Positions 1,529 to 16,675 of a stretch of 64,000 nucleotides of DNA are shown piece after piece; the stretch's first letter is position 1, and each line of letters opens with the position of its first letter. The notes under the pieces were generated by a model that was not told the origin of the DNA, did no database searches, and saw only the letters and a program-made list of their open reading frames with translations. The stretch comes from Myxococcus stipitatus DSM 14675 (lineage in GTDB: Bacteria > Myxococcota > Myxococcia > Myxococcales > Myxococcaceae): assembly GCF_000331735.1 (NCBI RefSeq), contig NC_020126.1, forward strand, positions 4,216,001 through 4,280,000, given 5' to 3'. Position numbers and translations under genes: made by a program.

Positions 1529-2293
1529 ATGGGCAACATGGGACGCAAGCGCGGGAGCTACGAGGACAAGCCGTGGATGCACAAGCCACGGGCGTTCGGG
1601 AACTACGGACCGACGCGGCCGAAGGCCATCTTCTTCGACGTGGATGACACCCTGGTCGACCGCACGGGGGCCTTCGCGCGCTACTTCGAGGCGCTCATGG
1701 CCCGCTTCCCCTCGGTGTTCCCCGAGCACCGCCGCGCCGAGGACTTCGCCACCATCCAGTCGTTCGACGGGCGAGGAGGGCGGGACCGGGACGCCTTCTG
1801 CCTCGACGTGACGAAGACCTTCCCCATGGGCATCTCCGCGAAGGAGCTGTGGACGGACTTCCGGATGACCCTGCCGGGCCTGGTGGGGACGGACGCGAAG
1901 CTGGTGGAGTGGGTGAGCGCGCTGGCGAAGCGCCATCCCGTTGTCACCGTCTCCAATGGATTCGCGGGCACCCAGCGCATGAAGCTCCTGCGCGCGGGCC
2001 TCTACCACGCGGTGCCGGAGGGCTTCTTCTCCAGCGAGGTGGGCGTGGAGAAGCCAGACCCGCGCATCTTCCTGGCGGCGCTGGAGCACGTGCGGCGAGA
2101 GCCCTCGGAGGTGCTCCACGTGGGCGACGACCCGGAGCGCGACATCGTCGGCGCGGCGAAGGTGGGCATCACCACCTGCTGGGTGTCCCATGGACGCCCG
2201 TGGCCCGCGGCGCTTCCCCCGCCGACCTTCACCGTGGAGCGCATCACCTCGCGCGTCGAGGACTTCGCGCAGGTGCTTTCGACATGGACATGA
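1529..2293 (+). CDS. HAD-superfamily hydrolase
   Basis: A 254-aa protein with all four HAD motifs: I, FFDVDDTLVD (Asp37 nucleophile, Asp39); II, VTVSNGF; III, GVEKPDPRIF (Lys); IV, HVGDDPERDIVG. The layout, with a helical cap between motifs I and II, resembles YjjG/REG-2-type phosphatases acting on small phosphorylated metabolites. ATG 1529 is chosen because GTGAGG lies 8 bases upstream; ATG 1538 is an alternative. The first ~32 residues (GSYEDKPWMHKPRAFGNYG) are an extension before the HAD fold. Its stop TGA overlaps the start of the STM4013-like gene (ATGA at 2290-2293), so the two are translationally coupled, suggesting that it works with the radical SAM cluster downstream. Confidence 0.85.
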   Translation: MGNMGRKRGSYEDKPWMHKPRAFGNYGPTRPKAIFFDVDDTLVDRTGAFARYFEALMARFPSVFPEHRRAEDFATIQSFDGRGGRDRDAFCLDVTKTFPMGISAKELWTDFRMTLPGLVGTDAKLVEWVSALAKRHPVVTVSNGFAGTQRMKLLRAGLYHAVPEGFFSSEVGVEKPDPRIFLAALEHVRREPSEVLHVGDDPERDIVGAAKVGITTCWVSHGRPWPAALPPPTFTVERITSRVEDFAQVLSTWT

Positions 2294-3093
2294 ACGCCGT
2301 GGTCGGCTCGCACGACCTGCTCTTCTTGACGCTGGACACCCTGCGCTTCGATGTGGCCTCGGAGCTGGCCACCTCGGGCCGCATCCCCCACCTTGCCGCG
2401 CTCATGCCCGGAGGCCAGTGGGAGGAGCGCCACTCCCCCGCGAGCTTCACCTACGCCGCGCACCACGCCTTCTTCGCGGGCTTCCTGCCCACGCCCGCGC
2501 GTCCGGGGCGGCACTCGCGCTTGTTCGCCATGCGCTTCGAGGGGAGCGAGACGACGGGGCAGGGCACCTGCGTGTTGGACGCACCGGACCTGGTGACGGG
2601 CCTGGCCGCGCGCGGCTACCACACGGTGTGCATCGGCGGGGTGGGCTTCTTCAACAAGCTCAACCCGCTGGGCAACGTGCTGCCGGGCCTCTTCGCCGAA
2701 AGCCACTGGGCGCCCGAGTTGGGGGTGCGCGAGCCTCGCTCCACCGAGCTCCAGGTGGCGCTGGCCGTGCGGCGGCTGGCGGAGGTTCCCTCGGAGCAGC
2801 GCGTGTTCCTCTTCATGAACATCTCCGCGCTCCACCAGCCCAACCGCCACTACCTGCCCGGAGCCACCGAGGACTCCCGCGCGACCCACGCGGCAGCCCT
2901 GGAATACGTGGACAGTCAGCTTCCACCCCTCTTCGCCGCGCTCCGCCGGAGGGGGGCGGCTTTCTGCATCGTCTGCTCAGACCACGGCACGGCGTACGGC
3001 GAGGACGGCTATAACGGTCACCGCGTGGGCCACCCCGTCGTCTGGACGGTGCCCTACGCCGAGTTCACCCTGTCGCGAGAGTCCGCACCATGA
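2290..3093 (+). CDS. STM4013-like alkaline phosphatase-superfamily hydrolase
   Basis: A 267-aa protein (from ATG 2290 in the ATGA overlap; ATG 2284 is the alternative). It begins LLFLTLDTLRFDVA, the first strand and metal-binding Asp of sulfatase/phosphodiesterase folds. A region ASFTYAAHHAFFAGFLP could carry the Ser/Thr nucleophile, and the C-terminus has VCSDHGTAYGEDGYNGH followed by GHPVV, the DHG and His metal ligands of the superfamily. It is short for a sulfatase and lacks the CxPxR formylglycine motif, so phosphatase or phosphodiesterase chemistry is more likely than sulfate ester hydrolysis. From memory it matches the family named for Salmonella STM4013/SEN3800. It is coupled by 4-bp overlaps to the HAD gene before it and the radical SAM gene after it. 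No signal peptide; cytoplasmic. Confidence 0.8.
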   Translation: MNAVVGSHDLLFLTLDTLRFDVASELATSGRIPHLAALMPGGQWEERHSPASFTYAAHHAFFAGFLPTPARPGRHSRLFAMRFEGSETTGQGTCVLDAPDLVTGLAARGYHTVCIGGVGFFNKLNPLGNVLPGLFAESHWAPELGVREPRSTELQVALAVRRLAEVPSEQRVFLFMNISALHQPNRHYLPGATEDSRATHAAALEYVDSQLPPLFAALRRRGAAFCIVCSDHGTAYGEDGYNGHRVGHPVVWTVPYAEFTLSRESAP

Positions 3094-4406
3094 AGCGCCT
3101 GGAAGAGATGCTCGAGGGGTCGCCGTACGTGGCGTACCTCTATGGCTACCCGCACAAGACGGCCTACCGTCCCTTCGCTCCGGCGCTCTCCCTGGAGTCG
3201 GTGTGGGCGGAGGAGCGGCGGGACGCCTTGTTCCTCTACTTCCATGTCCCGTTCTGCGAGATGCGGTGTGGCTTCTGCAACCTCTTCACGGCGGCGGGCC
3301 CCAAGCAGGACGTGGTGGACGGGTACCTGGCGGCGCTGGAGCGGGAGACCCGGCGCGTGAAGGAGGCGCTGGGCACGGCGAGCTTCGCGCGGCTCGCGGT
3401 GGGCGGTGGCACTCCGACCTTGCTCGACGTGGCCGGGCTGCACCGCGTGTTCGACCTGGCGGAGGACGTGCTGGGCGCGGACCCGCATCACATCCCCGTC
3501 TCGGTGGAGGTGTCGCCGGAGACGGTGGACGCGGAGAAGCTGCGGGTGCTGCGGGCGCGTGGGACGGACCGGGTGAGCATGGGCGTGCAGAGCTTCATCG
3601 AGGCCGAGGTGGCCGCGGTGAAGCGGCCCCAGAAGACGGCGCAGGTGGAGTCGGCGCTGGACCTCATCCGCTCGACGGGGTTCCCCACGCTGAACCTGGA
3701 CCTCATCTATGGGATGGAAGGGCAGACGGTGGAGAGCTTCCTGTTCTCCCTGCGGGCCGCGCTGCGCTTCTCCCCGGAGGAGGTCTACCTGTATCCGCTC
3801 TACGTGCGGCCGCTCACCTTCCTGGGGAAGAAGTCGCGCGCGTGGGATGACCTGCGGCTCTCGCTGTATCGCGCGGGCCGCGAGTTCCTCTTGTCGGAGG
3901 GCTACACCCAGGTGTCGATGCGGATGTTCCGCGCGCGCCACGCGCCGGATGCGTCGGGGCCGGTGTACCGCTGCCAGGAGGATGGGATGGTGGGCCTGGG
4001 GTGCGGCGCTCGCTCGTACACGGGCCGGGTGCATTACTCGTCCGAGTACGCGGTGGGCTCGCGCGAGGTGCGCTCCATCATCGCGTCGTACAGCGAGCGG
4101 ACGTCCGAGTCGTTCGGCGAGGTGGGCTACGGCTTCCGGTTGAGTGGCGAGGAGCGGCGGCGCCGGCACATGCTGTTGTCGCTGCTGGCGGATGGCGTGG
4201 ACTTCGCGGCGTACCGGGAGCGGTTCTGCTCTGACGTGCTGGAGGACTTCCCGGAGCTGCTGGAGCTGGAGGCCCACGGGCTGGCGCGGCGCGAGGGCGT
4301 GGGGCTGGTGCTCACGGCGGCGGGCGTGGAGCGCTCGGACCTGATTGGTCCCTGGCTGCACTCGGAAGGCGTGCGCGCGTTGTCCGAGGAGTACGCCTGG
4401 CGATGA
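3090..4406 (+). CDS. STM4012-like radical SAM protein (HemN-like)
   Basis: A 438-aa protein with a radical SAM cluster motif at residues 56-63 (FHVPFCEMRCGFC: Cys56, Cys60, Cys63), then VGGGTPTLL, VEVSPETVD, RVSMGVQSF and LDLIYGMEGQT. This is the characteristic succession of the coproporphyrinogen III oxidase/HemW branch. The length is usual for HemN-like proteins, but a divergent C-terminal half (YRCQEDGMVGLGCGARSYT) is followed by a winged-helix-like tail. It starts at ATG 3090 inside the stop of the STM4013-like gene and ends in an ATGA overlap with the next radical SAM gene, so all are one translational unit. It fits the family named after STM4012. Heme synthesis is unlikely given the context; the substrate is unknown, possibly a peptide or a phosphorylated intermediate handled by the neighbouring hydrolases. 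Confidence 0.85.
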   Translation: MKRLEEMLEGSPYVAYLYGYPHKTAYRPFAPALSLESVWAEERRDALFLYFHVPFCEMRCGFCNLFTAAGPKQDVVDGYLAALERETRRVKEALGTASFARLAVGGGTPTLLDVAGLHRVFDLAEDVLGADPHHIPVSVEVSPETVDAEKLRVLRARGTDRVSMGVQSFIEAEVAAVKRPQKTAQVESALDLIRSTGFPTLNLDLIYGMEGQTVESFLFSLRAALRFSPEEVYLYPLYVRPLTFLGKKSRAWDDLRLSLYRAGREFLLSEGYTQVSMRMFRARHAPDASGPVYRCQEDGMVGLGCGARSYTGRVHYSSEYAVGSREVRSIIASYSERTSESFGEVGYGFRLSGEERRRRHMLLSLLADGVDFAAYRERFCSDVLEDFPELLELEAHGLARREGVGLVLTAAGVERSDLIGPWLHSEGVRALSEEYAWR

Positions 4407-5290
4407 AGCTCACCGTGCTCTATCGAGGCCCGCTCTCCAGCTGCAACTACGGTTGCGAGTACTGCCCTTTCGGGAAGTGGAAGCACACCGAGGAGGAGCT
4501 CGCGAAGGACCGCGCGGACCTGGAGCGGTTCGTGTCGTGGGTGGAGGCGCGGACGGGAGACACGATGTCCGTGTTCTTCACGCCGTGGGGCGAGGCGCTC
4601 ATCTGGCCCTGGTATCAGCAGGCATTGGCGCGGCTGACGCAGCTGGGGCACGTGGATCGCGTGGCGGTGCAGACGAACCTGTCCTGCAACCTGGACTGGG
4701 TGAAGGACTGCCGCGCGGAGAAGCTGGGCATCTGGGCCACGTACCATCCGGAGTGGACGAAGCGGCATCGCTTCCTGGCGAAGTGCCAGACGTTGTCCGA
4801 GCTGGGCGTCCGCTACAGCGCGGGCATGGTGGGCTTCACGCGCTTCGCGGAGGAGGCGGAGGCGCTGCGCCGCGAGCTGCCCGAGGACGCGTACCTGTGG
4901 ATCAACGCGGTGAAGGACGGACAGGAGGAGCCCTACACCTCGGAGGACATCGCGCGCTTCACCTCGGTGGACCCGCTGTTCCCCGTGAACAACGTGCGTC
5001 ACCCCAGCCTGGGCCGCGCGTGCAGGGGCGGGGAGTCGGTCATCTCCGTGGACGGAGAGGGCACGGCGCGTCGCTGTCACTTCATCGATGAGGCCATCGG
5101 AAACATCTACGCGCCGGACTTCGACCAGGCGCTGCGCCCTCGGGCGTGCTCGAAGGCGACCTGTGGCTGTCACATCGGCTACGTGCACATGGACTACCTG
5201 GAGCTGGACCGCGTCTTCGGCTCCGGCATCCTGGAGCGCGTGCCCGTGAATCCTCTGTGGCGAGCGGGTGTCACCGCTCGCGCGGACTGA
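4403..5290 (+). CDS. STM4011-like radical SAM protein with C-terminal Cys cluster
   Basis: A 295-aa protein with CxxxCxxC at Cys14, Cys18 and Cys21 (SSCNYGCEYCPFGKWK), almost at the N-terminus as in minimal radical SAM enzymes. FFTPWGEALIW replaces the GGEP loop. The C-terminal part carries Cys207, Cys225, Cys249, Cys254 and Cys256 (ACRGG, RRCHF, CSKATCGCHIG), a spacing like a SPASM/twitch auxiliary iron-sulfur site. Such sites are typical of enzymes that modify peptides or proteins. It starts at ATG 4403 overlapping the preceding stop and is the last gene of the + strand half. It matches the family named after STM4011. No transport or maturase genes are adjacent, so a classical exported RiPP seems unlikely. 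Radical SAM assignment is firm; the reaction is unknown. Confidence 0.85.
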   Translation: MKLTVLYRGPLSSCNYGCEYCPFGKWKHTEEELAKDRADLERFVSWVEARTGDTMSVFFTPWGEALIWPWYQQALARLTQLGHVDRVAVQTNLSCNLDWVKDCRAEKLGIWATYHPEWTKRHRFLAKCQTLSELGVRYSAGMVGFTRFAEEAEALRRELPEDAYLWINAVKDGQEEPYTSEDIARFTSVDPLFPVNNVRHPSLGRACRGGESVISVDGEGTARRCHFIDEAIGNIYAPDFDQALRPRACSKATCGCHIGYVHMDYLELDRVFGSGILERVPVNPLWRAGVTARAD

Positions 5291-5296
5291 CGCGCA

Positions 5297-7198
5297 TCAC
5301 AGGCGGAGCTTGTCGACGGAGATGGCGCAGGCCTCGGTGAGCCCCGACTGCTGGCCGGTGCTCGCGGCGATGGACTGAAGGGCTTCAAGCCGGGTGCACG
5401 CGACCCGCGTCGTGTTCTCGAAGGCCTCGAGGAACTTCTCCGTCAGGCCCGGGTCATTGCTCGCGGCCCCGGGAATCGAGCACCAGTGCTTGCGCAGGAA
5501 GCTCCCCGTTCGCGACGGGTCCAGTCGCGCGACGAGCGGGCTGTCCGGGATGAAGCTCTCCAGCGCGCTCAACGCGAGGGCCGCGTCGCTGGCGGGCTCG
5601 GGTTGGAGCAGTTGCTTGAGTCGCTTGGCGTGGTCCTGGAGGAGGTCCATGTGGATGGCCTCTGGGTCCGCGGCGTTCTGCTTGAGCAGGCTTCGGAGGA
5701 CGAGGTCCAGGTTGAGGATTCGATAGCGCTCCAAGGCCAGCCAGAACCCGACGCGGACCTTGGGATTCGCCATGAGGGCGTCCCAGGCCGCGCCGGGGTC
5801 CATGGTGGGCTTCGAGCAGGTGGTGGGGTAGTCGATGCTGCTGGCCGTGTTGAGGAGCTTGCTCCAGCTCACCGCTTGCGGATGGCCCCTGTCGACGGAG
5901 ACCTGGCAATGCCAGTACGCGCGCTCCGCGGAGCCCAGCGAGGACCAGCCGAGCTGCGCCGAGGCCGCCGCCAGGACGCACAAGCTCAGCGCCGGGGTCT
6001 TCTTGGGCTGGAGCTTCTGGAGCAGCGCGAGGAGGTCCGGGACGGAGCGTCGCTCGACGATTCGGCCCAACTCGGTGCCCTTCTTGGGGTCGCTCCACTC
6101 GCGGAGGACGTCGGCGCGCAGGGGGGCGTTCTGCTGGAGTATCAGGAGGGCCTGGTCGAGAAGCTGCTCCTCGGCCGTGGCGAGGCCCTCGATGGAGGAG
6201 CGTGCACCCTGCGCCACTTGCAGCAGCTTGGGCCGGCGGGTGTTGAGCTCGGTCTCCAGGTTCTTTCGACCCTGGATGGAGGCGTCGATGAGGACGATGA
6301 GGGGCAGGGGGCCGGACTGGCTCTCGTTGATGAGCCGCTTGAGTTCCTCGAAGCGAAGGTGGGCCGCGACGGCCTGCTTCTGGCCTCGAGGTGCGCTCGG
6401 TGGCGCCGCGGGGCTGGCTCCTCGCTCCGTCGTCTGGCGAAGTGAGCCGCGCTCGATGCGGCCGGAGCCGCAGGCGAAGAAGGTCTGCGCGGGGAGGTTC
6501 CCCTGGGGCAGCCGGGGACGTCCCGAGGTGGATTGGAGCAGCGGGCGCGTCAGCCGCTCGACGACCTCCGAGGGGACGACGAGTCCGCGCTTCTCGCAGC
6601 GACCGGTGCGCTGGACGCAGTCGCCCCGCGGGTCCGGCGGTTGATAGCGGCCCGACCAGACTCCCATCAACCGGGGCACCCCCTCCGCGAGGACCACCAA
6701 GGGGGAGCCCGACTCGCCGTCGTAGGGCGTGGCGACCGTGAGCAGTGCGCCTCGACGCACGCCACATCCTCCCAGGCGGGTCCCCTCCAGCGGGCGGGGT
6801 GTGTCGACTTCGGCCCCGTGGAGGCGCGCGCCGTCACCGTCGCTCCCCAGCGTGAGCAGCCTCACGGGGTTGAAGGCGCTGGCCGTGGCGGGCTCCAGGG
6901 AGATGGTATCGGCCGGTGGTGCTCCGACACATTGGACGACGGCCACGTCGAACCGGGGCTCCACCGCGACGGTCTCGCACACGGATTGGCGCCGCCCCTG
7001 GACCAGCACGGACTGGCCTCGGGTCCTATCGAGCGCATGGAGCACCGTCACCCAGTAGCCTCGGCCCACGTGGAATGCGACCGCGCTCGCGCGTCGCGAT
7101 TTCAACCGGCTCACGGCTTGGGTCCCTGGCCTGTCCGCCGGCTCCGCCAACGCGGCGAGCGAGAACAGGCATGCGACCCACCAGGACAGGAGGCGCAT
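5297..7198 (-). CDS. Secreted trypsin-like serine protease with long C-terminal region
   Basis: A 633-aa protein with an N-terminal signal peptide (MRLLSWWVACLFSLAALA, cleavage near residue 18). A chymotrypsin-fold protease domain spans about 30-215, with a complete triad: His54 in VTVLHAL, Asp84 in RFDVAVVQC, Ser163 in YDGESGSPL. Several Cys (74, 90, 145 and later CVQRTGRC) could form disulfides. Residues ~260-633 are helical, have no recognised domain and may bind a substrate or partner. The start codon at 7198 lies 12 bp after the end of the upstream exported-protein gene, so the two are probably co-transcribed. It ends 6 bp from the convergent STM4011-like gene. Role inferred: extracytoplasmic proteolysis. 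Confidence 0.8.
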   Translation of the reverse strand: MRLLSWWVACLFSLAALAEPADRPGTQAVSRLKSRRASAVAFHVGRGYWVTVLHALDRTRGQSVLVQGRRQSVCETVAVEPRFDVAVVQCVGAPPADTISLEPATASAFNPVRLLTLGSDGDGARLHGAEVDTPRPLEGTRLGGCGVRRGALLTVATPYDGESGSPLVVLAEGVPRLMGVWSGRYQPPDPRGDCVQRTGRCEKRGLVVPSEVVERLTRPLLQSTSGRPRLPQGNLPAQTFFACGSGRIERGSLRQTTERGASPAAPPSAPRGQKQAVAAHLRFEELKRLINESQSGPLPLIVLIDASIQGRKNLETELNTRRPKLLQVAQGARSSIEGLATAEEQLLDQALLILQQNAPLRADVLREWSDPKKGTELGRIVERRSVPDLLALLQKLQPKKTPALSLCVLAAASAQLGWSSLGSAERAYWHCQVSVDRGHPQAVSWSKLLNTASSIDYPTTCSKPTMDPGAAWDALMANPKVRVGFWLALERYRILNLDLVLRSLLKQNAADPEAIHMDLLQDHAKRLKQLLQPEPASDAALALSALESFIPDSPLVARLDPSRTGSFLRKHWCSIPGAASNDPGLTEKFLEAFENTTRVACTRLEALQSIAASTGQQSGLTEACAISVDKLRL

Positions 7199-7210
7199 GG
7201 ACGGGAGCCC

Positions 7211-9181
7211 TCAGTTCAAGTCGAACAAGGGGACGTAGTAGCCGGCGAAGAGGCCGAAGCGGACGGCTCCGCCCCGGGTGCCGTTCTCCCGGTCCTCGGG
7301 GAAGAGCGCGGGGGCGTAGCGTCCCTCGACGCCGACGAGAAACAGATTGTCCGAGCTGCCGAGCAGGACGCCCGCCTGTCCGCCAATCATGAAGGCGGTC
7401 CTCCAGTCCGGGGTCGTCACATCGCCGCTGCGCTCGTAGCTGACGTACTGACCCAGGTCGAGGAGCGAGAAGCCGAAGTGCCACCCGACGGACTTGCCCA
7501 CGGCGGGCACGACTTGCATCGCCATGGTCACCGGCAGGCTGAGCTGGGGCGTGTAGTAATCCCAGTCACCTTGCGCCTTCCCATAGCCAATCACACTCGC
7601 CCCCACGGGAATCCCCAGGGTGGTGATGGTCTCCCCGCCTCGGTTGGAGCGGTCATTGAGCTCATCCACGAGTGACTCGATGACCTTGCGGCGCTGGGCC
7701 TGGGCCTCCGCCAGGTCCGCCTTTTCATAGGTGCGCGCATAGGAGACCGCGGACTGGATGACGGCGGACCCGCGCCGGATGGCCATGCCCGCCGAGTCGG
7801 AGGTCGCGTTCTTGGACAGGTGCGTCGCGATGCCCGCGAACAGCAGTTGGAAGTCCTGGGCCACCAGCGCGCGGGTGGTGGAGCGGGCGAGGGTCAGCGC
7901 CGTGCGCTGTGCGTCGCTGATGTCCGTGCCGCCCGCGTGCTCCGCCAGCAGCAACAGCCATTCGATGGTCGGAGCGATGACGCCCATCGGGGTGGTGTCC
8001 GGGTCGGGGTGGGTCAGCGCTCGCAGGGCGCGGATGCCGCCATAGGCGAGCGACTGCACCTGCGGGCGGGTGACACCTTCGACGCTCAGACATCGCGAGA
8101 TGGCGGGGACGTTCTGGACCTCGAACAAGCGGCTGACCAGGGTCGACACGTCACAGGTGCCCAGCTGGCCTGCCTGGGCACAGGCGCGCATGGTCGTGGT
8201 GGCCAGTCCGATGACACAGCGCCGGGCCGCGTCCGTCGAGGCGGGCATCGCCAGCCAGTTCTCGGTGGCGATGCCGTTGATGGACTCGGTCGCCGCCTGG
8301 AGGACGATGGTGCGCTCGCCGCTCATCCCCGCCTGCACCAGGGTCTGCGTCAGGCGAGGCAGGGCCGCCAGGACATCGACTCCCAGCGACGTGGACAGGG
8401 TGTCGCTCAGGCGGGTGCGGACCTCCTGGCTCGCGACTTCGGCGGCATCCATGAACGCCGCGTTCTGGAGGCTCCGGGCCGCGATTTGAAGGTCGTCCAG
8501 GCGCAAGGTGGCGAGCAGGGCGCAGCTGTTGGGCAGCAGGGTGTCCACGGTCTTCTCTGTCTTGCCCGAGGTCAGCTTCGCTTCGCAGAGGGTGGCCCTC
8601 AGCCGGGTCATCACGGCGCGCTCACCCTTGCGTCGGGCCGTGTCGAGCGCCACCTGGGCGATGGTCTTCAGCAACTCGTTGACGACCTCGTCGACCGAGG
8701 CGGCCGTCTCGGTCATCTCGGGGTTGAGGATGGCGACGGACGCGAGCTCCGGGACGGTGCGTGCCCGGGCCGCATCATCCCAGTCGATGGCGGCGCTCTG
8801 ACAGCGGGGAATCTGCGCGAGCAGCGGGGAGATGGCCTGCGCGGAGTCCGATTCCTTCGGGGGGCGAATCACGACGACCAGCGGCGAGAGCGGGATGAGG
8901 TCGGTGGGGAGGGTGACGCTCTCCACCCACTCGCGCTCCTCGCCGGTGGCGATGATGGAGGTGCCTTGCTGGATGCCCAGCCGATGCGGGCCCGCGGGCT
9001 GAATCCTCACCTCGGTGGTGGGGGCATTCGCCGAGCCACTCATGGTGCTGCAACACGCCCCGGCGGCGCAGTGCAGGGTCATGGTCCTGTCCGCCGCATG
9101 GGCCGCCGTGCTCCACGCCAGGATTCCCAAGACGACACACAGCCCACGTGACTGCGCACGCATGCGGACACGGATGTTCAT
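7211..9181 (-). CDS. Exported protein of unknown function, possible outer-membrane C-terminal domain
   Basis: A 656-aa protein. ATG 9181 is preferred over an upstream start because it directly begins a signal peptide (RAQSRGLCVVLGILAWSTAAHA, cleaved before ADRTMT). The mature N-terminus is Cys-rich (CAAGACC). Residues ~150-520 are Ala/Leu/Thr-rich helices. The last ~120 residues alternate polar and aromatic or hydrophobic residues (TPQLSLPVTMAMQVV, VGWHFGFSLLDLGQYVSY, AVRFGLFAGYYVPLFDLN), like beta-barrel strands of outer-membrane proteins. I do not recognise a named family. It is upstream of and probably co-transcribed with the secreted protease, and divergent from the zinc-ribbon gene at 9351. 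Confidence 0.6.
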   Translation of the reverse strand: MNIRVRMRAQSRGLCVVLGILAWSTAAHAADRTMTLHCAAGACCSTMSGSANAPTTEVRIQPAGPHRLGIQQGTSIIATGEEREWVESVTLPTDLIPLSPLVVVIRPPKESDSAQAISPLLAQIPRCQSAAIDWDDAARARTVPELASVAILNPEMTETAASVDEVVNELLKTIAQVALDTARRKGERAVMTRLRATLCEAKLTSGKTEKTVDTLLPNSCALLATLRLDDLQIAARSLQNAAFMDAAEVASQEVRTRLSDTLSTSLGVDVLAALPRLTQTLVQAGMSGERTIVLQAATESINGIATENWLAMPASTDAARRCVIGLATTTMRACAQAGQLGTCDVSTLVSRLFEVQNVPAISRCLSVEGVTRPQVQSLAYGGIRALRALTHPDPDTTPMGVIAPTIEWLLLLAEHAGGTDISDAQRTALTLARSTTRALVAQDFQLLFAGIATHLSKNATSDSAGMAIRRGSAVIQSAVSYARTYEKADLAEAQAQRRKVIESLVDELNDRSNRGGETITTLGIPVGASVIGYGKAQGDWDYYTPQLSLPVTMAMQVVPAVGKSVGWHFGFSLLDLGQYVSYERSGDVTTPDWRTAFMIGGQAGVLLGSSDNLFLVGVEGRYAPALFPEDRENGTRGGAVRFGLFAGYYVPLFDLN

Positions 9182-9191
9182 GGAGCCCCCA

Positions 9192-9215
9192 CCAGGACAA
9201 ATGCTTGTCGCCTGG
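9192..9215. promoter_or_regulatory. Dyad CCAGGACAA/TTGTCGCCTGG near a start codon
   Basis: An inverted repeat with arms at 9192-9200 and 9205-9215, with a two-base bulge and a 4-nt loop. It lies 11 bp upstream of the start of the exported-protein gene on the - strand, in the 169-bp divergent gap. It could be an operator or an RNA hairpin near the ribosome-binding site. No regulator can be named. Confidence 0.3.
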
Positions 9216-9350
9216 ATGGTAATGCTGGTGAGAGGGTTTGCGATAGGTGGCGGGTCCGGCGGGCCCTCGGGTCTGGGCCGACACGTGTTTCGCGGTGTTG
9301 ACACCCCCCCATGGACGGGAGCCCGGTGTGCGGGCTACAGACTCGCGCCC

Positions 9351-10208
9351 ATGTTCATCATCACGGGTAGCTCTCCCAAGCAGCAGGTGGTCGGGGAGCG
9401 CGTTGCTCCTTGTCAGGATTGTCGACAGGAGACGAAGCACAGGGTTCACCGGCACTACGCCGTGAAGCACTTGTTCTGGTTTCCCCTCTTCTCGATGGGG
9501 ACGAAGTACGTGCAGGCGTGTACGCGCTGCAACCTCCACTCCGAGGCGCCCCCGCCGGAGCCTGGCTCGGTGCCCCTGGCGCCGCTGCTCCACCGACGTG
9601 GCTTCATGTTCCCGCTGGGGCTCCTCCTGCTTCCCTGCGTCGTCTTCCCCTTGCTGGGCGCGTTGACGTCCGGCGCGAGGAGCGTTTCGACGGGCTCGGG
9701 AGAGGTCCCCACGGAAGTGGCGCAGCCCGCGGGCTTCAACGAGCGGTTCTCCGCTCAGCCCGAGGATGAGGTGGTCGAGAAGAAGCTCCAGGCCCTCTTC
9801 GAGGAGATGGGGATGCGCTCCGTCACCCTCGAGGCCCACTCCGCGAAGGTGGAGGGCCACGTCATCCGCGTCGTCACCGCGCGCTCCTCCCGCCTCAAGA
9901 AGGTGAGCGACGGAGACCGGATTCGTCTCCTCGAGGCCATGGAGGCGGTGGCGGACGAGCACTTCGCCTCCGACGAAATCTTCCTGGGCCTCCAGGGCCG
10001 GCTGCTGTGGGGCGGGCATTCACACCGCGGCGCGGGGGAATCGTGGAGCCGCGTGGTCGATGGCTCGACGCCCAACCCGGAGACGGATGCGCTCCTGGCG
10101 CTTCAGCAGCGAGAGGGGCCGTCCGCCGCGGGCGCGGAGCCAGATGCGCCGGTCGCGCCGTCCGCTGGCACGGAGCCCGTCGAGCCGTCCGCCGCCTCCG
10201 CGGAGTAG
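9351..10208 (+). CDS. Zinc-ribbon membrane-associated protein of unknown function
   Basis: A 285-aa protein; ATG 9351 is chosen because the coding pattern starts there. The N-terminal part has two Cys pairs, CQDC and CTRC, 38 residues apart, a zinc-ribbon arrangement, with VKHLFWFPLFSMGTKY between them as in zf-containing bacterial membrane proteins. One hydrophobic segment follows (GFMFPLGLLLLPCVVFPLLGAL, about residues 84-105). Residues ~130-225 form a small soluble alpha/beta domain. The last ~35 residues are Pro/Ala/Glu-rich (PDAPVAPSAGTEPVEPSAAS), and this tail is encoded on DNA that also encodes the end of the convergent ATP-grasp gene (106-bp overlap). Zinc binding is inferred; no function is assigned. 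Confidence 0.6.
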   Translation: MFIITGSSPKQQVVGERVAPCQDCRQETKHRVHRHYAVKHLFWFPLFSMGTKYVQACTRCNLHSEAPPPEPGSVPLAPLLHRRGFMFPLGLLLLPCVVFPLLGALTSGARSVSTGSGEVPTEVAQPAGFNERFSAQPEDEVVEKKLQALFEEMGMRSVTLEAHSAKVEGHVIRVVTARSSRLKKVSDGDRIRLLEAMEAVADEHFASDEIFLGLQGRLLWGGHSHRGAGESWSRVVDGSTPNPETDALLALQQREGPSAAGAEPDAPVAPSAGTEPVEPSAASAE

Positions 10209-11329
10209 CGCCTCAGGGCCTCACGAATCTCCCATTCGTAGACCGTGAGGCCCTCGCGGCGCAGTTGGGGGAGCAGGTCGCCGAAGGCATTGGCCTCCAC
10301 CACGCGGTGCCCTTCGAAGAACTCCTCGAAGAGCAGGTCGATGCCCACGTGCAGACAGTCATGTACGCGGGCCACCGCGCGGCAGCTCTCCAGGGCCCAC
10401 TCCCACGCCTTGCCCGGCATCGCGGCCCGGAGCGCGTCCAGGTCGCCCCGCTTGCCGCCCAGGTGCAGGTTGGTGATGGGTCCTCGGCTCTGCCGCACCA
10501 CGGTGAAGGCGGGCTCTCCCGCCACCACGAGGACACGGCAGTCGAAGAAGTCGCCGCCCAGCCGCGCCTTGGGGATGGAGCGCTCCACCTGGGAGCCCTC
10601 GCGCAGCAGGAACGCGAGGACCTCCTCGATGCGCTCCGGCTCCTCGATGCGGCGGACCTTGAGTGAGTTGTACCAGCCCGTCTCCGTCACTTCGATGGTG
10701 GTGACCAGCGACTCGCGCCCCCGGTGGCTCCGGAAGATGGCCAGGCACGACGCCGACGAGCCGCAGGACACCTTCACGAACACCTCGCGGCAGTCCTGCT
10801 CGCGCATCCGCTCGCGGAGCGACGCGGTGTCTGTCACGCCGTCCAGCGGGTCGGGGACGGGGATGCCCCTCGCGGCGTACTTCCGCGAGGTGATGCGCTT
10901 GTCGAACAGGTCCGCGATGCTCGCGGGGGCTTGCAGTGCCCTCCAGCGCGGACGCTTCGCGAAGCACGCCTCCAGCTCCGACAACACGCTCAGGAACCCC
11001 AGGTGTGCTTGTCGAGGGCAGAGGATGCGCCCGTGCTCCTCTCGCAGCGCCGCCACCTGCTCGGGGTCGAGCACGGAGCACCCCTGCTTCACGGCTTCGC
11101 TGTAGCCGCGCACGAGCAGGGCCTTCTCCACCTCCCAGCTCTCGCCCGCGGCGTCGATGCGGACCAGGGCGTCGGTGTCTGGCAGGTCCAGGAGGAGGCT
11201 CGGCGTGGCCAGCAGCTCTCGCCAGGGCACCACCCGCGCGAGGGCCTGTCCCTGGGCCACCAGCGCCTCCTGGAAGAGGGAGACTCGCCGGTTCTCGGCG
11301 TTGCCGATGAGGATGAATGGAACCGTCAC
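10103..11329 (-). CDS. STM4014-like ATP-grasp protein
   Basis: A 408-aa protein with ATP-grasp features. After an N-terminal pre-ATP-grasp fold (PFILIGNAENRRVSLFQEAL) it has DKRITSRKYAARGIPVPDP, EVFVKVSCGSSASCLA (ATP-binding Lys and small-residue loop), DFFDCRVLVVAGEPAFTVVR, ITNLHLGGKRGD, and VGIDLLFEE...RVVEANAFGDLLP with the C-terminal metal-binding Glu and Asn. This resembles RimK/glutathione synthetase-type ligases, which join a carboxylate to an amine through an acyl-phosphate. It matches the family named for Salmonella STM4014. It is the last gene of a minus-strand operon, 13 bp after the leucine-rich gene. The final ~30 residues are low-complexity Ala/Ser/Gly and overlap the 3' end of the zinc-ribbon gene. 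Substrate unknown. Confidence 0.75.
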   Translation of the reverse strand: MTVPFILIGNAENRRVSLFQEALVAQGQALARVVPWRELLATPSLLLDLPDTDALVRIDAAGESWEVEKALLVRGYSEAVKQGCSVLDPEQVAALREEHGRILCPRQAHLGFLSVLSELEACFAKRPRWRALQAPASIADLFDKRITSRKYAARGIPVPDPLDGVTDTASLRERMREQDCREVFVKVSCGSSASCLAIFRSHRGRESLVTTIEVTETGWYNSLKVRRIEEPERIEEVLAFLLREGSQVERSIPKARLGGDFFDCRVLVVAGEPAFTVVRQSRGPITNLHLGGKRGDLDALRAAMPGKAWEWALESCRAVARVHDCLHVGIDLLFEEFFEGHRVVEANAFGDLLPQLRREGLTVYEWEIREALRRYSAEAADGSTGSVPADGATGASGSAPAADGPSRC

Positions 11330-11342
11330 CCGGACTCCGTTG

Positions 11343-12404
11343 CTACGGTCTGCGTTGATTTCTCGCGTCGACGCCGGGGCCCACGGCCTCGACTCGGATC
11401 ACGCCCACGTCGGACATCATGTTCCTCCGGAGGTCCAGGTGCTGGAGGTGACGGAACGCCTCCGCGTGCTCCGAGAGCCACAGCGCCCCTGGGTTGGAGA
11501 AGGTGCCTCCGGACAGGTCCAGGTGCGTGAGCCGAGGGAGCAACGGTGAGTCGTGGAGGGCGCGGACGAGGTCGTCCGTCCACCGCGTGTTGCGCAAGCC
11601 CAGGCGCCGGAGGTTCGGCAGGCCCTCGCCGCTGAGCAGGGGACCGAGGTCCGTCACACGCTCCATCGCGTCCGTGTAGTCACCCCCGAGCCAGACCTCC
11701 ATCCGCTCCAGCGCGGGCCACTTCGCGTTCAAGAGGGAGTCTCGGCAGCCGCGAGAGATCTCCCACGTCCGCAACGTGAACTCGCGCAGCACCGGCAGGT
11801 CGATGCCCCCCAGCCGGGCGTGAATGCCTCTCAAGTGGAGCGAGCGCAGGCGCGGGAGCACCGCATAGAGCGCGGAGACATCGCCAAGCCGGATCGAGGA
11901 GTAGGTCTCATCCTCGTGGGCTTCCTGGGCGTGGTACGCGAGCGACTGGAGCGTCAGGGAGCCTCCTTCGCGGACGATGAGCCGGGTCACCGCCTCATAG
12001 CTGCTCAGCATCCCCGGGTCGGAGATTCCGCCGACGGAGAGTGCGCGGAGGAAGCGCCCCGACGGGTGTCGAAGGAGCTCCCGCAGGATCTTCGAGGCGG
12101 TGGCCTCGGCGAGGGGAGAACGGGGGCCGACCCGGGCCGCGCGGATGAAGCCCAGCTCCCAGTCCAGCTCCAGGGACCTGCTCTCGAGGGCCCAGGCAAG
12201 CGCGTCCCCGAGCAACTGCTTCTGGTGTCTCTGGAGGAACCCGGTGGCCTCGACGCGCGCGTGATGCAAGGCGATGAGCTCGCCGCGCGGGTCGCCCTGG
12301 GCCTGGAGCCAGTCGCCGTAGACCAGATACGCGTCCACGGCGTCGGGGTCCTGGAGGATGGCTGCTTCAAGCTCGGGATTTGAAGCAGCCTTGCTCCGCG
12401 ACAT
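11343..12404 (-). CDS. TIGR02996/leucine-rich repeat protein (STM4015-like paralogue)
   Basis: A 353-aa protein. Residues ~9-60 hold the repeat-companion motif NPELEAAILQDPD...DAYLVYGDWLQAQGDPRGELIAL, known as TIGR02996 in planctomycetes and myxobacteria. Leucine-rich repeats follow, for example LPRLRSLHLRGIHARL, LPNLRRLGLRNTRWTDDL and LPRLTHLDLSGGTFSNPGA. It is clearly paralogous to the gene immediately upstream (12410-13771) but lacks that protein's WGR domain. The start at 12404 is 5 bp after the upstream stop; the next gene starts 13 bp downstream. LRR proteins bind other proteins, so this may be the scaffold or substrate of the STM401x enzymes, by analogy with the STM4015 LRR family. That role is inference. 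Confidence 0.75.
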   Translation of the reverse strand: MSRSKAASNPELEAAILQDPDAVDAYLVYGDWLQAQGDPRGELIALHHARVEATGFLQRHQKQLLGDALAWALESRSLELDWELGFIRAARVGPRSPLAEATASKILRELLRHPSGRFLRALSVGGISDPGMLSSYEAVTRLIVREGGSLTLQSLAYHAQEAHEDETYSSIRLGDVSALYAVLPRLRSLHLRGIHARLGGIDLPVLREFTLRTWEISRGCRDSLLNAKWPALERMEVWLGGDYTDAMERVTDLGPLLSGEGLPNLRRLGLRNTRWTDDLVRALHDSPLLPRLTHLDLSGGTFSNPGALWLSEHAEAFRHLQHLDLRRNMMSDVGVIRVEAVGPGVDARNQRRP

Positions 12405-12409
12405 GGGGC

Positions 12410-13771
12410 CTACTCGCCGACGGCGGCGTAGCGGTACTCCTCGTCGTAGTCGCGCTGATTGCCCGCGGCGACGGTGCCGGCGATCTTCGCGACCAGCTTC
12501 TCGCCCTCGCCGGTCATCGTGTTCTCGGTCAGGTCCAGGTGCTTCAGGTGCTTGTAGGCCGCCGCGTGGTTCGCGAGCTCATGCGCCCCCACGTCGGACA
12601 AGCAGCCCATGGACAGGTCCAGCTTCTCGAGCTGGGGGAGGATCTTCGCGGTGTGCAGCACTTTCACCAGGTCGTCGGTGAACTCCGAGTTGCGCAGGCC
12701 CAGCACCTTGACGTTCGACAGGCCCTTGCCGTCGAGGATGGGCTGGATGTCCTCCACGCCGCCCTCCGCGCCGTAGCCATCCGCGCCGAACCAGACCTCC
12801 AGGCGCTCGAGCTTGGGCCAGGTCGCGCTGGCGATGGACTTCACCGCGCCGAGCGGCAGGCCGCCTGTCTCCATGATGAACTCACGCAGCTCCGGCAGCT
12901 CCACCTTGCCCAGCTCCGCGCTCGCGCCGCGCAGCCGCAGGGAGCGCAGGTTCGGGAGGGCCTTGTAGAGGCCCGAGACGTCGTTGACGTAGGACCAGGA
13001 GATCTCCGTCTCGTCCGGGTACTGAAAGTCGCCCAGGAAGAGGTTCTGGAGCGTGGGCACTTCCTTCGCGGCGACGATGGCGGCGGTGACGTCGTCGTAG
13101 TTGTTCTCGCCATCCATGTCGACCATGCCGACGGCGAGCGAGCGGATGAAGCGCGCGGAGGGGTGGGCGAGCAACTGCTTCACCGTCTCGGGGACATCGA
13201 GCTCGGAGTCGTAGTCACCCTTGCCGACGCGCGCCTCGCGGATGAAGCCCAGGTGCCACTGGACGGTGAGCTCCTCGTCGCTCCACGCCTTCGCCATCCC
13301 GCCGAGCAGCAGCGCCTTGTGCTTCTTGAGGTGCGCGGTGACCTTGCGCTTGAGGGCGCCGGCCTCGGCGCTGTCCGCGTTCGCCGCCGCGTGCTGGAGC
13401 GCGATGAGCTCGCCGCGCGGGTCGCCCTGGCCCTGGAGCCAGTCGCCGTAGACCAGGTAGGCGTCCTGGTTGTCCGGGTCCTTCAGGATGGCGGCCTCGA
13501 GCTCGGGGTTGGACTTGCCCTCGACCGCTTCGACCTCGTCGCCGTCCCCGTCCTCACCGTCCTCGCCGTCGACGAGCTCGTAGCCCTTCTTCTCCTTCTC
13601 GCGGACCAGCTTGTCGTGCTCCTTCAGGGCCGCCTCGGGAGAGTCGAAGCTCTGAGTCTTCTCCTGGCCATCGGTGCCGATGCGACCCCACTTGGTGGTG
13701 AAGGTCTTGCCCTCGAGCGTGATCTCCCAGAACTTGTTGGAGCTGCCTTCCTTGAACTCGTACCGCGGCAT
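12410..13771 (-). CDS. WGR domain + TIGR02996 + leucine-rich repeat protein (STM4015-like)
   Basis: A 453-aa protein. Residues 1-65 form a WGR domain (MPRYEFKEGSSNKFWEI, then TTKWGRIGTDGQ), a module also found in PARPs and in standalone bacterial proteins where it binds nucleic acids. An acidic linker (DGEDGEDGDGDEVE) leads to the TIGR02996 motif (residues ~88-130). LRRs follow (LPNLRSLRLRGASAELGKV, LSNVKVLGLRNSEFTDDL, LPQLEKLDLSMGCLSDVGA, LKHLDLTENTMTGEG). The stretch FLGDFQYPDETEISWSYVNDV resembles the STM4015 family signature as I remember it. It is the first gene of the minus-strand operon with its paralogue and the ATP-grasp gene. The acidic linker and the WGR are additions relative to a plain LRR protein. 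Likely an interaction hub or substrate; not proven. Confidence 0.75.
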   Translation of the reverse strand: MPRYEFKEGSSNKFWEITLEGKTFTTKWGRIGTDGQEKTQSFDSPEAALKEHDKLVREKEKKGYELVDGEDGEDGDGDEVEAVEGKSNPELEAAILKDPDNQDAYLVYGDWLQGQGDPRGELIALQHAAANADSAEAGALKRKVTAHLKKHKALLLGGMAKAWSDEELTVQWHLGFIREARVGKGDYDSELDVPETVKQLLAHPSARFIRSLAVGMVDMDGENNYDDVTAAIVAAKEVPTLQNLFLGDFQYPDETEISWSYVNDVSGLYKALPNLRSLRLRGASAELGKVELPELREFIMETGGLPLGAVKSIASATWPKLERLEVWFGADGYGAEGGVEDIQPILDGKGLSNVKVLGLRNSEFTDDLVKVLHTAKILPQLEKLDLSMGCLSDVGAHELANHAAAYKHLKHLDLTENTMTGEGEKLVAKIAGTVAAGNQRDYDEEYRYAAVGE

Positions 13772-13816: not shown

Positions 13817-15313
13817 CTAGAGAAGCCCTCGCGCAAGCTCAAGCGTCGCGCCCGTCCAAGCTTCCCAGGGCGCCTCCATGGACAGCCCCGCCCGATTTTC
13901 TTCCTGGAATCCCCGTTCCCGCGTCACGGCGCCGGCACGAGGCACCTGGAGCCGGGGACTGGGGCCGCTCAGGTCGAGCAGGTGGAGCCCCACTCGAGAG
14001 GGGAGGCCCTCCGCCTCCAGCGTCGCCTGACGGACCGCGTCGAGTCTCAGCACATCCACGCGCGCGCGCTTCGAGTCCGCCTCCGCGCGGGCCAGCACCT
14101 CGGCGTCGTCTCGCGGTGTGAGAATCTCGACGGTGCCTCGGGCGCGCCATTCGCGCAGGAGCAATTCGGACAGGCCGCGCTCGGCCTCCAGCGGGTGGGG
14201 GCCGGTTCCGTCCCATGGGAAGGCCACCTGGAAGCGCAGGTCCTGGTCGCCCAGCCACAGGGACAGCCTGCGCACCAGGCACAGCACCAGCCCCAGGGCC
14301 ACGACGGCGCGCTGCCACTTCACGCCGGAGTCCTTCACGCGGGCCTCGGCGAGGCTCGGGGGCAGGACGAACGTGATGACGCGGCGGCGGCGCACCGCGA
14401 GGCTCTCGTCGCGGGTGTAGTAGAGCAGCTCGCCCTCGACGTAGCGCACGTCGAACAGGTCGAGCGTGGGCTCATCCTCCATGTAGACGAGCTCGGAGGT
14501 GACCAGGTTCTCCAGGCTGCCCACGTTGGAGACGGAGGAGAAGCCTCCCTGGGGGAAGGCGGCCTCGTCGTCGAGCGCGGAGGGGGCGGGGCCGGAGGAG
14601 ACGGAGCGCGCGCGGAGGCGGGCTGGGAGCGTGCGGGAGAGCGCCTCGGCGGCCTCCACGGCCTGCTCCAGGGCCATGCGCTGGGCCTTGCCCTGGAGGT
14701 GCTCCAGGTTCTCCAGCGTGAAGACCTCCGCGTCGCCCAGCAAGGCCGGGGCGCGGCGTGCTCCCGAGGTCAGCGCTTCGTACCCCTGGGCGAGCTGCTC
14801 CAGGAACGGGCCCCCCTCGCGCAGCGCCGTGTAGCCGGATTGCAACAGTTCCCCAGGAGTCTTCTCCAGGACGCGGCGGGCGAGCGCGGGGTTCATCCCG
14901 AGGCCCGTGGTGAAGCCCGTGCGGGAGAGGACTCGGGCCACGAGGAAGGCCATGCCGCGAGGACGCAGGGCCGAGGGCAGCCGCGCGAGGGCGGCGGACA
15001 CGGCTTCGAGGTGAGGCTCGGCGGCGAGCCGGGCGAGCACATGGTCGTCATACGCGCGCACGGCGGCGCGCAGTCGGGGCAGGGTGTGCGGGACAGGGAG
15101 GGATGAGGCGAGGGCGTGTCCGGCGACCAGCCGCCCCAGGTCCAACACCAGCGCGGGGGGCGGGAGCGTGGGGGACTCCGCGAGGGTGGCCAGCAGCCAC
15201 GGCACACCCGCGGAGAGCACCTCCGCGTCGAGCCGCTCCTGACGAGCGAGTCCCAACCCCGCGCAGAGCCAGCGTTCCGTGTCGTGCGGGCCTCGTCGCG
15301 CCGATGCATCCAT
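13817..15313 (-). CDS. vWA-like component of the FtsH-vWA-MoxR system
   Basis: A 498-aa protein; ATG 15313 is preferred (GGAAG just upstream) over 15376. The N-terminal ~280 residues are Leu/Ala-rich helices. The middle contains GGFSSVSNVGSLENLVTSEL followed by DLFDVRYVEGELLYYTRDES, a block I associate with the vWA-bearing partner of MoxR in ternary systems. The C-terminal ~200 residues read as alternating strands and helices (RRRRVITFVLPPS, VVALGLVLCLVRRLSLWL, RFQVAFP) like a vWA fold, but no clear DxSxS metal site is seen. vWA partners normally couple MoxR ATPases to substrates. It sits last in the locus, 124 bp after a methyltransferase gene. Family assignment rests on context plus pattern memory. 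Confidence 0.55.
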   Translation of the reverse strand: MDASARRGPHDTERWLCAGLGLARQERLDAEVLSAGVPWLLATLAESPTLPPPALVLDLGRLVAGHALASSLPVPHTLPRLRAAVRAYDDHVLARLAAEPHLEAVSAALARLPSALRPRGMAFLVARVLSRTGFTTGLGMNPALARRVLEKTPGELLQSGYTALREGGPFLEQLAQGYEALTSGARRAPALLGDAEVFTLENLEHLQGKAQRMALEQAVEAAEALSRTLPARLRARSVSSGPAPSALDDEAAFPQGGFSSVSNVGSLENLVTSELVYMEDEPTLDLFDVRYVEGELLYYTRDESLAVRRRRVITFVLPPSLAEARVKDSGVKWQRAVVALGLVLCLVRRLSLWLGDQDLRFQVAFPWDGTGPHPLEAERGLSELLLREWRARGTVEILTPRDDAEVLARAEADSKRARVDVLRLDAVRQATLEAEGLPSRVGLHLLDLSGPSPRLQVPRAGAVTRERGFQEENRAGLSMEAPWEAWTGATLELARGLL

Positions 15314-15437
15314 GCGTCTTCCGTGTATCACGAGGGCCGCCGCGTTTGCGCTCGACGCCCGTGAGGGGAGCCGCACGGGCCCCGAGGCTTCGAGCGCCGA
15401 GTCGAGCCCTCACCTGGCGCCGGTCAGGCTCCGGGAA

Positions 15438-16604: not shown

Positions 16605-16675
16605 GGACCCGAGGGGGTAGCACGTCCGCGCCCCACCGTCGCGCCTGGGGTGATGGGAAGGTCTGTCCGGTGCGC

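Follow-up and report, generated by a model that had tools for sequence, protein, structure and literature searches.

An STM4011–STM4015-type gene cluster of Myxococcus stipitatus and the conserved Glu-ending tail of its LRR proteins as a putative modification site

RimK is a glutamate ligase acting on the C-terminus of ribosomal protein S6; its target protein ends in Glu, the modification is permanent, and we know of no radical SAM or hydrolase partners of this enzyme. In the amino-group carrier systems (LysW with LysX/ArgX; Vzb22 in Streptomyces) the target protein has an acidic extension at its C-terminus, the last residue of which is Glu, and LysX forms a bond between its substrate's amino group and the gamma-carboxyl of the C-terminal Glu of LysW (PMC10433800, PMC9303977). 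LysW itself is a small zinc-binding carrier with the sequence EDWGE, and its systems include partners of the LysZ/LysY type. Graspetide and SPASM RiPP pathways combine an ATP-grasp ligase and a SPASM-type enzyme in one cluster, with a ribosomal sequence as the target, and contain a short precursor peptide, a protease and a transporter. The families STM4011–STM4015 are named only from Salmonella locus tags. In the sources searched, two of these genes receive passing mentions and no function is assigned; literature searches on RiPPs combining LRR, radical SAM and ATP-grasp proteins and on DUF6745 found nothing.

The window analyzed here is a 64,000-nucleotide stretch of the M. stipitatus DSM 14675 genome. 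The analysis confirmed the coordinates of the seven genes which the first-pass annotation had described as a split STM4011–STM4015-type cluster spanning 12 kb. The features are as follows:

1529–2293, + strand: HAD-superfamily hydrolase (HAD-IA; Pfam PF00702, 4.8e-18) with an intact DxDxT motif, FFDVDDTLV
2284–3093, + strand: STM4013, alkaline-phosphatase-superfamily enzyme (NF038075, 431 bits, cut-off 250)
3090–4406, + strand: STM4012, HemN-like radical SAM enzyme with Radical_SAM and HemN_C domains (NF006067, 607.7 bits, cut-off 380)
4403–5290, + strand: STM4011, radical SAM enzyme with a Cys-rich, SPASM/twitch-like C-terminal region (NF038073, 405.9 bits, cut-off 200)
5297–7198 and 7211–9304, − strand: two lineage-specific genes (one weakly trypsin-like, the other unknown) between the cluster halves
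10103–11329, − strand: STM4014, ATP-grasp ligase with a LysX/ArgX/RimK-like fold (NF038074, 394.1 bits, cut-off 175)
11343–12404, − strand: second STM4015-like LRR protein, tail-less, with the C-terminus NQRRP (NF038076, 142 bits, E 2e-41)
12410–13771, − strand: tailed WGR-LRR STM4015-like protein (NF038076, 219 bits, E 7e-65; WGR PF05406, 7e-21)
12413–12436, − strand: tail YRYAAVGE of the WGR-LRR protein (Glu codon 12413–12415, then a TAG stop), the proposed modification or ligation site

Adjacent + strand genes overlap by 10, 4 and 4 bases. The four STM4011–STM4014 products of the window all exceed the curated NCBIfam cut-offs. Both LRR products fall below the STM4015 cut-off of 275 bits (NF038076), which no sampled Myxococcota protein attains; the gene partners and the tail are nevertheless the same, and we regard the two products as STM4015 relatives rather than strict members. 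The locus differs from typical ones in being split, in carrying a WGR-LRR protein in place of a plain LRR protein, in the adjoining HAD gene and in its tail-less second LRR protein, whose tail is likewise missing in three sister genomes. The splitting itself was described correctly: in Corallococcus, among others, the halves lie next to each other in convergent orientation. Since the halves adjoin without them at other loci, the two genes at 5297–9304 are probably not part of the system.

STM4011, STM4012 (over cut-off), STM4013 and STM4014 were found in 61, 61, 61 and 60 of the same 193 Myxococcota genomes, an association far above chance. In a set of 61 long loci spanning many phyla, all five families are present together in 54, and members occur in Salmonella, Streptomyces, Deinococcus, cyanobacteria, Planctomycetes, Bacteroides and myxobacteria. 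Gene order is kept across phyla, and the divergence of the five families is correlated (r 0.67–0.95, uncorrected for the species tree). These patterns support the earlier proposal that the genes belong to one pathway. That they are unrelated chance neighbors, as the two unrelated genes splitting the cluster in the window might hint, is refuted by the near-perfect co-occurrence and shared order, and we give this explanation practically no weight. The Salmonella cluster was not found in 5,426 complete E. coli genomes at megablast sensitivity. A phage-borne system was considered and rejected: matches in phage collections comprise only two Salmonella records (5.9 kb without annotation, and a bacterial contig), and almost all of the 28 matches in viral contigs are cross-matches to distant radical SAM proteins. 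An anti-phage defense system was also set aside, as PADLOC models gave nothing beyond weak cross-matches involving radical SAM and WGR.

The STM4015 LRR proteins share a strict, ungapped, disordered C-terminal tail, R-[YF]-x-[AST]-V-x-E-COOH; this motif and its tie to the enzymes are new here. Counted from the stop, Arg is found at position −7 in 101, Tyr or Phe at −6 in 102 and Glu at −1 in 105 of 113 non-redundant proteins. The motif is present in 130/158 STM4015 open reading frames and in 0/8,368 others. In contrast to the tail, the LRR parts are only about 25–35% identical between phyla; in the AlphaFold2 model of the WGR-LRR protein the LRR part is ordered and the tail has pLDDT below 50. 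The terminal Glu is kept where Arg-Tyr is lost, as in Salmonella (MNAMYTE), Bacteroides (YYPMITE) and Planctomycetes (GDWE, GDIE and GDYE). A DNA scan of 23 genomes for the tail followed by a stop returned 28 sites, of which 23 are ends of STM4015-like LRR frames; the other five are short, out-of-frame or chance occurrences, so that no tailed non-LRR protein was found in these genomes. LRR relatives in enzyme-negative genomes have no tail or a decayed one, with two exceptions (G012, 93% complete, and G162, 89% complete), both fragmented assemblies with a tailed LRR protein in which the enzymes were not found. A single enzyme set is accompanied by as many as about eleven tailed LRR proteins per genome, which are scattered and, in three genomes (G182, G184 and G126), lie on separate contigs. 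A search for a natural fusion of STM4014 with an LRR protein found none.

Compared with PDB structures, the STM4014 profile matches LysX best (2.3e-5), followed by RimK (5.8e-5). The AlphaFold2 model (pLDDT 91.8) is closest in fold to the ArgX-LysW complex (3VPB, Z 23.8), and RimK and LysX score Z 22.5–23.6; the LysX/ArgX fold and RimK are tied within 1 Z. Glutathione synthetase comes next (21.6); the lead of LysX/RimK over other ATP-grasp enzymes is 1–2 Z units, and the fold by itself leaves the substrate unspecified. STM4014 is also nearer to LysX/RimK than to PsnB/MdnC. Taken with the conserved Glu-ending tail, this likeness to ligases of protein C-terminal Glu supports the earlier suggestion of the LRR protein as substrate or scaffold, and narrows it to the tail as the putative site.

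Of the two radical SAM enzymes, STM4012 conserves CxxxCxxC, and in 48 STM4011 sequences C14, C18 and C21 are invariant together with the C-terminal C207, C225, C249, C254 and C256. The Cys-rich end of STM4011 matches SkfB residues 323–397 weakly (profile, E 0.008). The SPASM model has no match in the window protein and scores 18.3 bits, under the cut-off of 21.5, for a Bacteroides homolog. The first-pass annotation had read the C-terminal cysteines as a sign of peptide work, to which the SkfB match and the five invariant residues lend weak support.

On balance, we lean towards the cluster being a post-translational modification or carrier system acting on the C-terminal tail of the LRR protein: its enzymes probably recognize and chemically modify the last residues, ending in Glu. 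The folded LRR domain would provide a docking platform and the disordered RYxAVxE-COOH tail the reaction site, as substrate or carrier. STM4014 with ATP may activate the terminal Glu carboxylate and couple to it an amine that is probably an amino acid, in the way that LysW is loaded by LysX/ArgX and S6 by RimK. STM4011 and STM4012 could later use radical chemistry to alter the attached group or the neighboring Arg-Tyr, and STM4013 and the HAD hydrolase could take off a phosphate group (alternatively sulfate or a nucleotide) or free the product. As in the amino-group carrier systems, a ligase with a LysX/ArgX/RimK-like fold would act on a Glu-ending protein, and the other enzymes could likewise process the attached group. 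Unlike those systems, the candidate carrier is an LRR protein with RYxAVxE (although some planctomycete tails read GDWE), no LysZ/LysY-type partners are seen while two radical SAM enzymes are present together with two hydrolases, and some species have many candidate carriers per genome. If correct, this reading would mean that C-terminal Glu loading is not confined to small carriers but also takes place on LRR proteins, and would join it to radical SAM chemistry, giving the five families a common putative substrate site and a testable hypothesis for the first step.

Within tail modification, the change could also be permanent, as with RimK: the end product would be an LRR protein tuned or equipped for binding or localization, or with a redox or metal group. 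RimK matches the STM4014 fold level with LysX, though its own substrate protein differs from LRR proteins, and the one enzyme set faces tailed LRR proteins that are unlinked, of differing size and sometimes WGR-containing. However, a pathway of four to five catalytic steps is long for a tag, and outside Myxococcota most genomes have 1–2 LRR genes within the operon, which is more carrier-like; we therefore see this as possible but on the unlikely side.

We are more doubtful about a RiPP pathway, in which the radical SAM enzymes would cross-link the Arg-Tyr...Glu tail for cleavage into a peptide-derived cofactor. PQQ derives from Glu and Tyr of PqqA, both residues are conserved in the tail, STM4011 is SPASM-like, and a strictly conserved "core" tail would follow a divergent LRR "leader". 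Yet Glu stays unchanged where Tyr is replaced with Phe, Ser, Asn or Met in some proteins, a large folded LRR domain is an unusual leader, and, unlike in graspetide and SPASM pathways, no short precursor peptide is present, nor was a protease or transporter found in the conserved gene set of the loci compared. Ring closure of the graspetide type was rejected, as the 113 tails show no conserved Ser/Thr/Lys acceptor beside Glu. The conserved tail could also be a docking motif without modification, the LRR protein serving as an unchanged adaptor through which the enzymes reach another substrate, a small molecule or a protein. LRR domains are usually protein-binding and the tail has the form of a short linear motif, but a docking motif does not need Glu to be exactly C-terminal, as a C-terminal ligase does, and the STM4014 fold fits the latter; we regard this explanation, too, as rather improbable.

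The STM4013 profile matches sulfatases and NPPs in the PDB, and Asp18, His184, Asp210, Asp233, His234 and His246 are invariant in 31 sequences. By motif comparison rather than structure, Thr56 occupies the sulfatase nucleophile position in 31/31; a formylglycine (type I) sulfatase was rejected, as Cys or Ser would be needed there. Sulfate-activation genes adjoin STM4013 in seven myxobacterial genera and lie near the cluster in one further phylum, ATP sulfurylase/APS kinase being among the linked functions; this raises sulfate as an alternative to the phosphate or other ester suggested by the first-pass annotation. We tentatively speculate, as a minority possibility, that the LRR proteins, sometimes about ten per genome, form a new carrier class: a small molecule would be loaded on the C-terminal Glu by the LysX/RimK-type ligase, rebuilt by the two radical SAM enzymes with activated-sulfate input, and then either released as a metabolite that contains sulfur or is sulfated, or retained on the protein as a new cofactor. 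The inclusion of the HAD hydrolase in the cluster agrees with its recurrent adjacency: broadly similar HAD genes sit between STM4014 and STM4013 at three loci (L068, L083 and L119), one of the same broad kind adjoins STM4013 at another (L088), and one lies downstream of the cluster in Salmonella. In Bacteroides, the HAD domain is fused to STM4011.

The window carries the seven genes that the first-pass annotation had described as a split STM4011–STM4015-type cluster, all at the places it gave:

1529–2293, + strand: HAD hydrolase
downstream, + strand: STM4013 (alkaline phosphatase superfamily), STM4012 (HemN-like radical SAM) and STM4011 (radical SAM)
10103–11329, − strand: STM4014 (ATP-grasp ligase)
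11343–12404, − strand: second LRR protein of the STM4015 type
12410–13771, − strand: WGR-LRR protein of the STM4015 type, ending YRYAAVGE

STM4013, STM4012, STM4011 and STM4014 each score above the curated NCBIfam cut-off; the two LRR proteins are clear STM4015 matches, yet fall below it. Successive + strand genes overlap by 10, 4 and 4 bases, and each cluster enzyme is present in a single copy in the 10.35 Mb host genome. A SLOG/PpnN-like protein is encoded directly upstream of the HAD gene (348–1493), a position kept in other Myxococcus loci. On the other side, genes for a 519-aa protein, a HemK-like methyltransferase and a RavA/MoxR-type ATPase adjoin the LRR genes (13817–21000); the first has relatives in four other Myxococcus-type loci.

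Scanning genome contigs with the STM4011 alignment confirmed 583 relatives, and 80 loci were retained from Myxococcota, Chloroflexota, Cyanobacteria, Planctomycetota, Verrucomicrobiota, Armatimonadota, Actinomycetota, Bacteroidota and other groups. All five families are present in 54 of the 61 loci of at least 15 kb. Deinococcus, Streptomyces, Methylobacterium, Paenibacillus and Salmonella share the commonest operon order, 4015-4014-4013-4012-4011. Myxococcota have two convergent halves, 4014-4015 and 4013-4012-4011, which adjoin in Corallococcus and are separated by about 5 kb or more in the window and in several relatives. Among 193 Myxococcota genomes, STM4011, STM4012 (above cut-off) and STM4013 each occur in 61 and STM4014 in 60 of the same genomes, the sole genome lacking STM4014 being 78% complete. 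Pairwise divergences of the families are correlated (0.67 to 0.95, species relatedness still included). The cluster is real and conserved, and is without explanation in the sources searched, where its families were known by name only. Four genomes (G112, G141, G093, G121) have a second, more distant STM4012-like gene apart from the cluster.

In the STM4015 alignment, which covers several phyla, the protein end is conserved and the LRR part is not. Across loci, the final seven residues fit R-[YF]-x-[AST]-[VLI]-x-E, preceded by an acidic linker, and this tail terminates 130 of 158 STM4015 ORFs versus 0 of 8,368 other ORFs from the same loci. With the stop codon as the only alignment anchor, 113 non-redundant proteins have Arg at −7 in 101, Tyr/Phe at −6 in 102 and Glu at −1 in 105 cases; Glu is the last residue of about 4% of other ORFs. 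The terminal Glu persists in the Salmonella, Bacteroides and planctomycete forms, which have lost Arg-Tyr. In the model of the window WGR-LRR protein the LRR part is ordered (pLDDT mostly about 90–98), while the tail falls below 50. Because this disordered segment is the most conserved part of the protein, we infer that it is a modification site. The first LRR protein is tailed both in the window and in three sister genomes; the second has lost the tail in all four, its sister counterparts having different ends.

The tail also follows the enzymes. A tailed LRR protein was found in 61 of 61 enzyme-positive Myxococcota genomes (for 59, the profile match extends into the final columns, which correspond to the tail; G115 and G168 were read directly) and in two of 132 enzyme-negative ones. 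In these two, G012 (loci L162/L241) and G162 (L213/L238), no STM4014 was found, nor, in the phylum searches, any other cluster enzyme; both assemblies are fragmented, and a decayed tail, GRTVAVVD, closes one of the G162 copies. An intact tail was absent from the LRR relatives read in enzyme-negative G150, G131, G057, G008, G192, G163 and G142. When 23 genomes were scanned for the coded tail plus stop, 28 sites emerged, 23 of which terminate STM4015-like LRR frames, including the short, apparently frameshifted L212, assigned by eye. The remaining five were rejected as short, out of frame or chance.

RimK extends the C-terminus of ribosomal protein S6 with glutamates. LysX and ArgX act on LysW, whose C-terminal Glu, inside the EDWGE motif, receives an amino group on its gamma-carboxyl (PMC10433800; review PMC9303977). 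Against PDB sequences, the STM4014 profile matches LysX (2.3e-5), then RimK (5.8e-5), sharing with both the D-x-R and T/S-N motifs, which are invariant or nearly so within STM4014. Foldseek places its AlphaFold2 model (pLDDT 91.8) closest to ArgX in complex with LysW (2.9e-12). The top eight VIA-align matches are all ArgX, LysX or RimK (Z 22.5–23.8, about 270 residues, 2.7–3.0 Å), followed by glutathione synthetase (Z 21.6) and by inositol kinases and D-Ala ligases near 21. Since the ligase resembles these enzymes and the tail ends in Glu, the two independently point, by analogy, to a new amide at the C-terminal Glu as the likely chemistry.

STM4011 possesses a CxxxCxxC motif plus five more invariant cysteines; its sole profile match in the PDB is the SPASM enzyme SkfB, over the Cys-rich region (E 0.008). 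STM4012 is HemN-like. STM4013 has Thr where sulfatases have Cys/Ser, a sequence feature that makes a classical sulfatase less likely than a phosphatase, phosphodiesterase or transferase. The HAD gene appears to be a genuine partner, because HADs recur beside cluster genes and one is fused: they lie between 4014 and 4013 in one planctomycete, Chitinophaga and one further bacterium, beside 4013 in another planctomycete, and downstream of 4011 in Salmonella. The fusion, to STM4011, belongs to a reduced cluster on a Bacteroides finegoldii plasmid (L039:7513–11530) with LRR and ATP-grasp genes, without STM4012 and with STM4013 only as a short fragment.

Seven other genera in the window's family encode a sulfate-activation enzyme near STM4013. 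Immediately upstream of STM4013, G126, G128, G160 and G189 (one genus) and G181 have a bifunctional ATP sulfurylase/APS kinase, which is present in part in G178; its frame overlaps STM4013 by a few bases in most such genomes. G168 has a stand-alone APS kinase in that position. CysD-CysN-CysC genes are divergent from STM4013 in G184 and G070, G140 has CysD and an APS kinase, and an Obscuribacterales genome, from a second phylum, has CysD and CysNC near the cluster. Loci with such genes (Sat-APS kinase fusion, APS kinase or CysD/CysN/CysC) beside STM4013 or near the cluster are:

L060:1371–3826; L182:1208–3657; L184:602–3069; L243; L244
L070:7264–7932; L073:5112–8418; L061:5275–8453; L117:13040–15662

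Each genome has two or three APS kinases. That different enzyme types occupy the same place suggests that the pathway uses or handles activated sulfate. However, the link is clade-limited, as the APS kinases of the window's own genome lie far from the cluster, one of them inside an ordinary cysDNC operon.

In the order that we propose, STM4014 would first couple an amine to the tail's terminal Glu; the attached group or Arg-Tyr may then be changed by STM4011 and STM4012, and STM4013 and the HAD protein could either release the product or strip phosphate, sulfate or nucleotide groups. Of this scheme, only gene content, co-occurrence, tail conservation, the tail–enzyme link and the ligase fold are observed. 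The modification may be permanent, as favoured by the many scattered tailed LRR proteins: several lie on separate contigs in each of G182 (about eleven), G184 and G126, yet every enzyme is single-copy there. Alternatively, the LRR protein may be a carrier; this is favoured by the operon of most phyla, which includes one or two LRR genes. Within the sources searched, no precedent was found for the tail, for its association with the enzymes, for the analogy with C-terminal Glu ligases or for the sulfate link.

Outside Myxococcaceae, a DUF6745 protein is a frequent cluster neighbour (L035:10894–12215, L036, L037, L042; many Streptomyces, Chloroflexota and planctomycete loci). Its N-terminal part is LRR-like, its C-terminus is conserved in a form of its own, YxP..[EQ]T, and a YRHGDVLVQ protein of about 100 aa often accompanies it.
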